Below the pieces are notes generated by a model. It worked only from the letters and a program-made list of their open reading frames with translations. It was not told the DNA's origin and ran no database searches. From positions 1 to 26,341 of the forward strand of contig JAFRQC010000184.1 in the NCBI GenBank assembly GCA_017428805.1: DNA of 26,341 nucleotides, written 5' to 3'. The stretch comes from Prevotella sp. Lineage in GTDB: Bacteria; Bacteroidota; Bacteroidia; Bacteroidales; Bacteroidaceae. Positions 23,401 to 25,067 of the stretch are shown piece by piece. The position numbers and the translations under genes were made by a program. Each line of letters opens with the position of its first letter. Positions within the stretch are counted from its first letter, which is position 1.

Positions 23401-23436
23401 ATATTTTGACAGATTACTTTTTTTTGTAATATTGAC

Positions 23437-23843
23437 ATAAGCCTCCATAAATATATTTATCGTATTGATATTCAATACTTTACGCTATGGAGGCTTATGG
23501 TTTTAGCCTCCATATAGCCTCCATTAAGAGGGTTAAAAGTCACATTTTAGTACCTTCTGAGTCTGAATAACGATATTAGTTCATGATAGTTTAGATAGGG
23601 TAAACTATAAGTTTAAGCAGTGTAAACTACCAGTTTAGACTGGATAAACTAACAGTCCAAGCTGCTTATGTGATTATTTAACTACCTTATTATCAATAGA
23701 TTATAGAATATTTAGCCTCACTTTTGTCCATATCTTTCATCATAATACAGTAATTATGGAGGTTATATGGAGGCTTAAATAGTAAGCCTCCATAATATAA
23801 CATATTGGTTTTCAATTATTTATTTAATATTATGGAGGTTTAT
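23437..23843. repeat. 407-bp element with 90-bp inverted arms, each with four TATGGAGGCTTA-like motifs
   Basis: The left arm (23437-23526) and the reverse complement of the right arm (23754-23843) align without gaps; about 66 of 90 positions match by hand. Each arm holds four copies of a 12-bp motif at the same spacing: left at 23437, 23486 (inverted), 23504 and 23515; right at 23830, 23783 (inverted), 23766 and 23754. The 36-bp spacer between the first two motifs contains a small inner dyad in both arms (GTATTGA-TAT-TCAATAC on the left). The 227-bp interior carries a 22-bp dyad array. I recognise no known element. Confidence 0.8.
23588..23653 (+). repeat. 22-bp tandem repeat array (dyad unit), copy 2
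   Basis: Three 22-bp units start at 23588, 23610 and 23632, each a 19-bp dyad AGTTTA-N7-TAAACT plus 3 bp. A decayed fourth unit begins at 23654. The first unit matches the minus-strand unit of the 3184-3271 array at 15 of 22 positions. Confidence 0.8.
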
Positions 23844-23980
23844 AGTAAAATTGATAAAATTTCATGGTTTATCGACTTTAGCTTGTCACTTACGTCTTTA
23901 ACAAGATGCGAACAAACGGCAATAATTATAAAAAATGATATTTTCCTGCTCACAATATTCGCCGTTTGCCAAATTATTCT

Positions 23981-23988
23981 TATCTTTG
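23981..23988 (+). promoter_or_regulatory. -7 promoter element of the antitoxin gene
   Basis: TATCTTTG followed by CCAA fits the consensus; the start would be near 23994, about 23 nt before the preferred ATG at 24017. Confidence 0.6.
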
Positions 23989-24016
23989 CCAACAAATTAT
24001 GATGAAAGGAACAATT

Positions 24017-24247
24017 ATGTCGTACAGTCAATTAGCGCAACTGGAGTTCATGAACGCCATTAATAGCATCAATTCCGAATCAGAACTTAACGATTTCAGG
24101 AATATGCTGTCACATTATTTTGCCCAAAAAGCACAAAGGGCAATTGATGCTTTGTGGGATGAAGGTGTCATTAACAATGACACCATTGAACAATGGGGTG
24201 AAGAACACATGCGTACTCCTTACCACTATGAGGCGAATCGTCCTTGA
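24017..24247 (+). CDS. Antitoxin-like protein paired with a PIN toxin
   Basis: The protein has 76 residues from the ATG at 24017, preceded by AAAGGA at a suitable distance. In-frame ATGs at 23999 and 24002 are alternatives that would be nearly leaderless. It is a small helical, acidic protein (LAQLEFMNAINSINSESELN) ending W-G-E-E-H-M-R-T-P-Y. I know this tail from small proteins encoded just before COG1569-type PIN toxins in Bacteroidales. The next gene starts inside it, at 24228, a 20-nt overlap typical of a toxin-antitoxin pair. It should neutralise the PIN RNase, which is truncated here, so it is probably an orphan antitoxin. Confidence 0.65.
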   Translation: MSYSQLAQLEFMNAINSINSESELNDFRNMLSHYFAQKAQRAIDALWDEGVINNDTIEQWGEEHMRTPYHYEANRP

Positions 24248-24404
24248 CACAAACTGTCTTCTACAGTCACTGCCTTCTTCCAGTCCGTATCATAAGATAT
24301 GGACGGATATACTAAATGGCCAAATTCAGTTGTGTGTCAATACTGAGATTCTGAATGAATATGAAGAGATCCTGGCCAGCAAGACAATTAATAGCCCAAC
24401 ATAG
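24228..24404 (+). pseudogene. Truncated PIN-domain toxin (VapC-like, COG1569 type)
   Basis: The frame starts at the ATG at 24228 with MRRIVLDTNCLLQSL, which carries the first conserved PIN Asp (LDTN). It continues SPYHKIWTDILNG and CVNTEILNEYEEILASK, which carries a further acidic residue. Full proteins of this family have about 140 residues with two more acidic sites. Here homology ends after about 53 residues and the frame stops at 58. The break lies near 24385, where the 3' end of a convergent HigA-like gene begins. It is therefore most likely inactive, cut by arrival of the higBA-like module or by a deletion. Confidence 0.75.
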
Positions 24405-24750
24405 CAGCTGGCGTTATTCCTAAAGTGACACAAAGCAGACGGGCAATTTTCAGCGTAGGCTCTGCCCTACCTGAGACATAGTCGCTTATGCGTGAAGGAC
24501 TAACTCCAATCTCTGCAGCCAACTGTTTCTGACTCATATTCTTCTCGTCCAACGAAAGCTGTATCAACTGCGCTACGGTAGGTTTGCCCATGGGATAGTG
24601 CTCCTTCTCATAATCAATGACAACATCCGACATCATTGTCAACTCCACAGCATTGCGGTCGTTGGCAGGTGTGTTGTCATCTACCATTGGCAACAGTTCC
24701 TCAATTCGTGCCAATGCGAACTTGTATTGCTCTTTAGTAATCTTTGCCAT
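24388..24750 (-). CDS. higA: HigA-like antitoxin with XRE helix-turn-helix
   Basis: This 120-residue protein has an N-terminal half (ALARIEELLPMVDDNTPAND, YEKEHYPMGKPTVAQLIQ) like COG5499 antitoxins. A Cro/C1-type helix-turn-helix follows at about residues 71-112 (MSQKQLAAEIGVSPSRISDY, then PTLKIARLLCVTLGI). It should bind the toxin and repress the shared promoter. It is the second gene of the pair, 17 nt after the toxin gene, in the toxin-first order typical of HigBA. Its 3' end overlaps the end of the truncated PIN gene by 17 nt. Confidence 0.85.
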   Translation of the reverse strand: MAKITKEQYKFALARIEELLPMVDDNTPANDRNAVELTMMSDVVIDYEKEHYPMGKPTVAQLIQLSLDEKNMSQKQLAAEIGVSPSRISDYVSGRAEPTLKIARLLCVTLGITPAAMLGY

Positions 24751-24767
24751 ATTCGTACCTCCTTATA

Positions 24768-25067
24768 TTATATCGTTGAAACGTCTATCTTATCGTATTC
24801 ACTATGAGTACCCACAAATCGGATGAAAATATGCCCGATTGTGAACTTTACAACCACCACAAGTCGATATTTGTTGCCCCTGATGTCAAAGACATAGTGT
24901 TGGCTTCCAACGTAGTCTGTTGTGGGGAAATCTGCCTTTATATCCGACAGGTTCTTCCACTCTGCCTTTTCTGCGATGTCATACCATCGTTCAAGTGCAG
25001 CCTGAGCGTCTCCATGTCCTTCCGAACTATAGAACTCAACTAATCGTCTATGTGATACTATTCTCAT
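24768..25067 (-). CDS. higB: HigB-like mRNA interferase toxin
   Basis: This 99-residue basic protein of the RelE/HigB superfamily (COG4680 type) probably cleaves ribosome-bound mRNA. Recognisable parts are MRIVSHRRLVEFYSSEGHGD, AALERWYDIAEKAEWKNLSD, the central YVFDIRGNKYRLVVVVKF, and the ending IFIRFVGTHSEYDKID with His and Tyr at typical positions. The length is normal and nothing looks broken, so with its antitoxin it seems to be an intact type II pair. A good promoter precedes it and leaves a leader of only a few nt. Confidence 0.88.
   Translation of the reverse strand: MRIVSHRRLVEFYSSEGHGDAQAALERWYDIAEKAEWKNLSDIKADFPTTDYVGSQHYVFDIRGNKYRLVVVVKFTIGHIFIRFVGTHSEYDKIDVSTI

Follow-up and report, generated by a model that had tools for sequence, protein, structure and literature searches.

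The window, as we call the whole stretch of DNA analysed here (26,341 bp), is a chromosomal segment of a Prevotella-like genome. It carries genes for trigger factor, ClpP, ClpX, RecQ, IMP dehydrogenase, PPIases and an OstA/LptD-type protein, as well as MutL, tRNA-Val and an Mfa2-like gene, after which come the element described below and then small genes. The element sits between the apparent terminator of the Mfa2-like gene and the promoter region of the next gene. On its 3' side lies a small pair (23966-24404), made up of a 93-aa ORF and an overlapping ORF that we take to be a cut-short PIN-type toxin, and an HTH protein and a HigB-type toxin are encoded on the minus strand at 24388-25067. 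Four places in other genomes were aligned here and are 74-79% identical to the window over a stretch that starts at about 23911-23972 and extends no further than 24385; similar places were listed in many further genomes. Among the 20 ORFs scanned with Pfam we found no transposase, no integrase or phage-interference gene and, as the original prediction had stated, no recombinase; the window's 26 kb hold no primase-helicase gene.

The nearest relative found, G001, is an uncultured Prevotellaceae MAG that matches the window at 90% identity over 5 kb and at 87% over the 2.2 kb that follow, as far as mutL and tRNA-Val. Synteny stops just after the tRNA-Val (window 22031), and the variable part beyond it contains the element together with the Mfa2-like gene and the toxin genes. 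The search for empty sites that had been proposed for this element therefore yielded no clean example, as the region after tRNA-Val is not syntenic in G001.

Architecture of the element

The original prediction placed at 23437-23843 an element in which eight motif copies form two mirrored clusters on 90-bp inverted arms matching at about 66 positions, and this description proved accurate. In a pairwise comparison, the left arm (23437-23526, plus strand) and the reverse complement of the right arm (23754-23843, minus strand) agree at exactly 66/90 positions without a gap; when 23420-23860 was dinucleotide-shuffled 60 times, no pair of 90-mer arms exceeded 47 identities. The inverted repeat runs slightly beyond these ends (23421-23524 with 23756-23859, 71%), which gives 23421-23859 for the whole element. 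An arm model, R2, of which the window arms are part, matches the left arm at 23438-23527 (E 4.8e-22) and the right arm at 23753-23842 (E 5.6e-22).

Eight AGCCTCCATA-like sites with at most one mismatch begin at 23440+, 23486-, 23505+ and 23516+ in the left arm and at 23755-, 23766-, 23785+ and 23831- in the right arm, so that the steps between them are exactly mirrored (46, 19, 11 / 11, 19, 46 bp). Across the entire window, 10 such matches were observed vs 1.64 expected. Repeat analysis and the motif scan both identified copy 1, TAAGCCTCCATA (23438-23449, plus), the inverted copy 2 (23486-23497, minus), copy 6 (23766-23777, minus) and copy 7 (23783-23794, plus). The motif scan identified copy 3 (23505-23514, plus) and three copies with one mismatch: copy 4 (23516-23525, plus), copy 5 (23755-23764, minus) and copy 8 (23831-23840, minus). 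Each arm also holds the anticipated 36-bp spacer with a small inner dyad: ATTGATATTCAAT (23464-23476) in the left spacer at 23450-23485, and ATTGGTTTTCAAT (23804-23816) in its mate at 23795-23830.

The interior (23528-23752) has 69% A+T, between a left arm of 67% and a right arm of 75%, in a window of 49%. As at iteron origins, phased copies of a short motif thus lie beside an A+T-rich region. Within the interior, the expected array of 22-bp dyads consists of three AGTTTA-N7-TAAACT-N3 units (23588-23650), a kind of array that is dispersed in some related genomes. Consistent with the claim that the element contains no gene, no ORF of at least 60 aa lies wholly within it in the ORF list; a 65-aa ORF begins in the right arm at 23805. 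A chance origin of the element is disfavoured, and a chance or decayed duplication was rejected on the basis of the motif counts, the copies elsewhere and the shuffled arms.

Copies in other genomes and their association with primase-helicase genes

A scan for the exact pattern in one genome per species returned 13 loci. Two of them, L004 (in G001) and L013, both from Prevotellaceae, have the spacing of the window element and the dyad array; the other 11, in other taxa, showed no further clustered motif copies and were therefore treated as chance palindromes. Four arms of the window, L004 and L013 align without gaps, and homology of the window element to L004 (reverse strand) starts at about 23852. 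BLAST with the element matched 7 of 100 relatives of L013's genome, that genome among them, and led to G042, in which the motif GCCTACAT replaces GCCTCCAT.

An eight-arm model, as had been suggested for relatives of the window, gave matches in at least 30 of 299 genomes of G001's genus, a Prevotellaceae genus; this is a lower bound, as stricter filters were applied and at most 14 candidates per genome were scored. By our own count, 13 of the 30 genomes have one or more plus arms with a minus arm next in order, the remainder having single, often weak arms. Copies with conserved motif spacing therefore exist, and the grounds on which the element might have been discounted, a lack of other copies and of conserved spacing, fall away.

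The central arrays have a wider distribution, also occurring alone, without recognisable arms. A two-unit dyad-array pattern (at most 3 mismatches) was found in 16 of 200 genomes of G020's genus, with 85, 72, 61, 48 and 20 matches in the five richest genomes (overlapping units counted separately), and its reversed control gave one match apiece in six genomes. At three G193 loci (L062, L064 and L065), a self-mirrored TAACACCTA motif cluster adjoins, rather than surrounds, the 22-bp array. No nucleotide match to the element was found in plasmid and phage collections, and no match to the exact pattern in viral contigs; a plasmid or phage origin of the element DNA was rejected on these grounds.

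Over nearly its entire length, interior included, the window element is homologous to the region directly upstream of primase-helicase genes at three loci: L057 (65.8% over 415 bp), L134 (66.7% over 421 bp) and L050 (61.3% over 432 bp), the homology to L057 and L134 covering about 23452-23858. The gene next to L057 and L050 encodes PF08800 (BT4734-like primase) and PF05272 (VapE-like helicase) domains in Pfam; at L134, PF08800 alone was tested. An initiator-type gene adjoins the homologous copies at L050, L057, L134, L181 and L261, but not the window element, the functional partner of which is likely to lie outside the window. We know of no assigned role for chromosomal copies of BT4734-like primases.

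The nine genomes reached from the element contain 87 PF08800 matches (5 to 15 each). Upstream regions were examined at 46 of these 87 loci, six picked for a nearby array or element and 40 taken roughly by E-value, a sample that omits most of the weak, long (about 820-950 aa) matches. At least three mirrored motif pairs were present in the 620 bp upstream of 18/46 primase genes and at least four upstream of 8/46, while 28/46 had fewer than three. Dinucleotide shuffles yielded three or more pairs in 1/920 cases. Other ORFs at the same and neighbouring fetched loci had at least three pairs in 3/63 cases and at least four in 1/63, significantly fewer than the primase genes (Fisher, p 8e-6 and 0.004, respectively). 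Without the six picked loci, the counts for primase genes were 14/40 (p 9e-5) and 6/40 (p 0.013). At the best PF08800 locus of eight genomes, mirrored arrays were recognised by eye at 8 loci, and the statistic agreed at 6 of the 8. Starting instead from the arrays listed in two genomes, 6/57 lay less than 1 kb upstream of a PF08800 match, vs 0.21 expected (4/27 in G178 and 2/30 in G020, among the arrays listed for it).

At the loci listed, the primase-helicase gene stands singly among ordinary chromosomal neighbours, and no island was recognised from ORF listings around ten relatives and Pfam scans of ten proteins from such loci. The primase gene has a DUF6078-type gene in its vicinity at L057 (according to Pfam) and in L307, a Parabacteroides record (by annotation); L167 has a frame with a start like that of a DUF6078-type gene. 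Near position 1841 of L163, mirrored tandem runs of 7-bp-spaced TAATGGAT lie upstream of another gene. A related protein (32-35% identity) is encoded in three bacteriophage-labelled and three plasmid-labelled Bacteroides/Parabacteroides records, some of the plasmid labels seeming doubtful to us. Inverted repeats of 28-53 nt, counted without a shuffle control, lie upstream of it in 5 of the 6 records; L309 has 53-nt arms, 22-bp repeats and 23-bp central repeats there, and L308 only a two-copy 22-bp repeat. In viral contigs, a scan for relatives of the linked protein turned up a single distant locus.

A profile of the linked proteins had one match of solved structure, 7pds_A ('Similar to D. nodosus vapE', E 3.6e-13), through the helicase part; we take 7pds to be the Rep helicase of the staphylococcal pathogenicity island SaPI5. 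The PADLOC PrimPol profile matches the N-terminus, and an NCBIfam scan gave only matches far under the cut-off. Structure models were weak, with a mean pLDDT of 41 for the first and of 62 for the second, in which the helicase core was unreliable, but both agree on a C-terminal domain predicted to be winged-helix-like. A PDB fold search with the second model returned no match at E <= 0.001, its non-significant top rows including primase-polymerases, with winged helices lower down among unrelated proteins; given the lack of a significant match and the unreliable helicase core, we place little weight on this search.

Several genomes also carry the module without the gene. At least eight copies are present in G042, the gene being found at L181 only; no gene occurs in the 5 to 17 kb fetched around each of the seven other copies, which are 74.6-78.7% identical to L181. 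Judged by eye, their similarity to L181 fades about 45 bp to the left and about 60 bp to the right of the arms, and the right end varies. For G229, eight gene-less loci were fetched and seven aligned; the aligned copies have mirrored ends, and their 11-bp runs are longer. The G229 assembly yielded no cognate gene. Three ATGACATA copies in G020 have near-identical arms and unrelated flanks, one of them being cut by a contig end, and a gene with the ATGACATA motif was found in G001 but not among the G020 genes examined. A TnpB/OrfB-type gene (L051, 6-1085) lies about 1.2 kb from the gene-less G020 copy at L051. In four G326 copies (L255-L258), the two arms touch with no interior, and their left flanks have not yet diverged where the aligned stretch ends. 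These relatives thus contain short, gene-less elements with inverted ends, located approximately, at several unrelated places, as is characteristic of MITEs.

Among eight genomes searched, an arm or arm pair lies directly upstream of the gene in G300, G114, G261, G152 and G326, the G326 gene being a shorter, helicase-only frame; in G229, G122 and G165, no listed arm position coincides with the region upstream of a gene. Helicase-only relatives of about 400 aa (L267, L269 and L277) also occur beside full-length ones. By eye, L266 and L277 have repeated motifs upstream, and L269 has no arms resembling the solo copies of G229. Copies with cargo between the arms, as had been envisaged, were not what we found: the gene that accompanies such arms is the primase-helicase, and it lies outside them.

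Motif specificity, geometry and constraint

The motif varies with the lineage of the primase (GCCTCCAT, GCCTACAT, GCCTTCAC, ACGTCACT, CCTCTAC and others), and the sites within one element change together while their geometry is largely preserved. We compared motifs with a tree of 44 proteins, from which three of fewer than 500 residues had been dropped and to which that of L261 had been added. Motif labels came from the mirrored-pair statistic, except for L172, L173, L165 and L166, which were read directly, and L261, which was labelled by the arm model. One clade of 18 proteins has a mirrored array in 16 cases, L165 and L166 falling outside it. CCTCTAC belongs to a single clade of four proteins from four genomes (100/100), the ATGACATA and ACTGACAT proteins are sisters (99/97), and the GCCTACAT proteins of L181 and L261 form a weakly supported sister pair (80/55). 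In several groups, the motif therefore tracks the protein lineage in part.

Layout likewise goes in part with protein lineage. The 46/19/11 geometry is preserved in GCCTCCAT, GCCTACAT and GCCTTCAC elements and on one side of a GCCATCAT element. L162, L167, L181 and L261 share the plan of the window, with steps of 46/19/11, or of 44/21/11 for ACGTCACT; L163, a member of their subclade, has 50/15 steps, and tandem 11-bp runs are found in most members of the other subclade. Although closely related and almost the same in the C-terminal domain, L162 and L163 have quite different motifs, a contrast suggesting that the C-terminal domain alone may not set specificity. Either specificity lies elsewhere or the sites can exchange quickly.

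Conservation is concentrated at the sites. In 12 paired elements, the two arms are identical at 438/480 site columns and at 315/624 positions between sites, which argues for bound sites and against a hairpin as the selected feature.

Interpretation and relation to known systems

We consider it moderately probable that the window element is an orphan, MITE-like copy of the iteron-type origin and operator of a primase-helicase selfish gene, acted on in trans. The iteron/origin reading was adopted on account of the 7pds-type helicase, the PrimPol match, the winged-helix-like C-terminus and the known organization of SaPI origins, and among the functions originally suggested for the element, a replication site fits best, given the same structure upstream of primase-helicase genes. 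The arm motifs would be iterons, putative sites for the cognate primase-helicase or for a co-evolving partner, arranged with a fixed helical geometry to the left and right of an A+T-rich centre that contains 22-bp dyads. Initiator complexes might assemble face to face on the two arms and then open the centre. Where the gene is present, the module would serve as a replication origin and probably also as the operator of the gene; gene-less copies would be non-autonomous, MITE-like passengers, dispersed through the action of a cognate primase-helicase in trans. The homology to the upstream module, its dispersal, its geometry and the constraint on its sites are observed; that the primase-helicase binds the sites, that replication starts from them and how the copies spread are inferences.

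An unlikely, though not negligible, alternative is that the element is a MITE of an unidentified transposon, its arms being transposase-binding ends and the primase-helicase genes passengers or preferred neighbours. Dispersed copies with conserved ends and unrelated flanks in G042, G229 and G020, the near-mirrored end sequences in G229 and the TnpB-type gene near L051 would all fit such an origin. However, no transposase was found among the scanned window ORFs, gene-bearing copies carry their gene outside the arms, the motif follows the primase lineage in several groups, and right-hand ends differ among the G042 copies. The early suggestion of transposon ends is partly supported, as the dispersal is transposon-like.

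Somewhat less probable still is that the module acts only as an operator, through which the primase-helicase or a regulator controls its own promoter, gene-less copies being leftovers of deleted genes. Its position between a neighbouring gene and the promoter region of the primase-helicase gene is consistent with this, as is the one additional motif copy that immediately precedes the start codon in the CCTCTAC group. An arrangement of at least eight sites mirrored about a centre nevertheless exceeds what is usual for operators, and gene loss alone hardly explains seven gene-less copies each in G042, at unrelated places, and G229, as aligned.

We reject a structured RNA or terminator, in which the arms would pair as a long hairpin, as very improbable: both strands of the element outscore shuffled sequence in folding by a wide margin (z -9.5 and -8.6), but no Rfam family reaches its gathering threshold there, the arms are complementary at 91% of site columns and at 50% of the positions between sites, and direct-repeat copies within one arm agree in sequence although pairing makes no such demand. 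The invertible DNA segment that had also been considered, given inverted arms around a 227-bp centre, has even less to recommend it, as no recombinase was found among the scanned window ORFs and the arms diverge freely outside the sites (about 50% alike).

Returning to the iteron-type module, we tentatively suggest, as a broader possibility that we hold less firmly, a class of Bacteroidales selfish DNA whose autonomous unit consists of a single primase-helicase gene with its mirrored iteron module, copies of the module alone spreading as non-autonomous satellites. A replication initiator, not a transposase, would act in trans on these satellites, and the sites of a module would shift together with the specificity of the initiator, producing many orthogonal pairs per genome. 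Such a system, if real, would be of a new kind. Should the mirrored arrays prove to be origins, a genome would hold several orthogonal initiator-origin pairs, and three questions would become approachable: what role these primase genes have, how the specificity of an initiator and that of its eight or more sites shift jointly, and whether DNA consisting only of an origin can be spread by a replication initiator in the way that MITEs are by a transposase. In keeping with the suggestion that the element was undescribed, a full-text literature search, to which most subscription papers were inaccessible, returned no description of the module.

Dispersed palindromes are known from REP/REPIN sequences with their RAYTs, and several protein sites per end from Tn7-like elements. 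Unlike in these systems, no such transposase was found among the 20 scanned window ORFs, the sites are of mixed orientation, and the neighbouring gene in relatives is a primase-helicase. In SaPIs, groups of iterons flank an A+T-rich stretch of the origin, and the pairing of Rep with iterons is island-specific. The linked genes share with SaPIs a VapE-like helicase related to 7pds, which the window itself lacks; unlike SaPIs, they stand singly in the chromosome at the loci listed, and they have a BT4734-like primase domain, a 22-bp dyad centre and many gene-less copies. In the available part of one account, SaPI initiators have helicase activity, are accompanied by primases and can drive autonomous replication (PMC7145576). 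The PF08800 domain places the linked genes in the BT4734-like primase family, an AEP family assigned to no clade in the part of its description available, which mentions no upstream origin-like module (PMC5862659). The nearest described element found in the literature, as far as the accessible part of its description goes, is the BrickBuilt MITE of Porphyromonas gingivalis, present in 19 copies in one strain (PMC4596501). Its 23-nt repeat (consensus AGAYCATARTATCCTCTCRTRTG) differs from the 22-bp interior unit of the window element, its ends are small inverted repeats rather than arrays of sites, and no primase link appears in that part of the description; like the module, however, it is an intergenic, dispersed element of Bacteroidales with a tandem repeat between its ends (PMC4596501).
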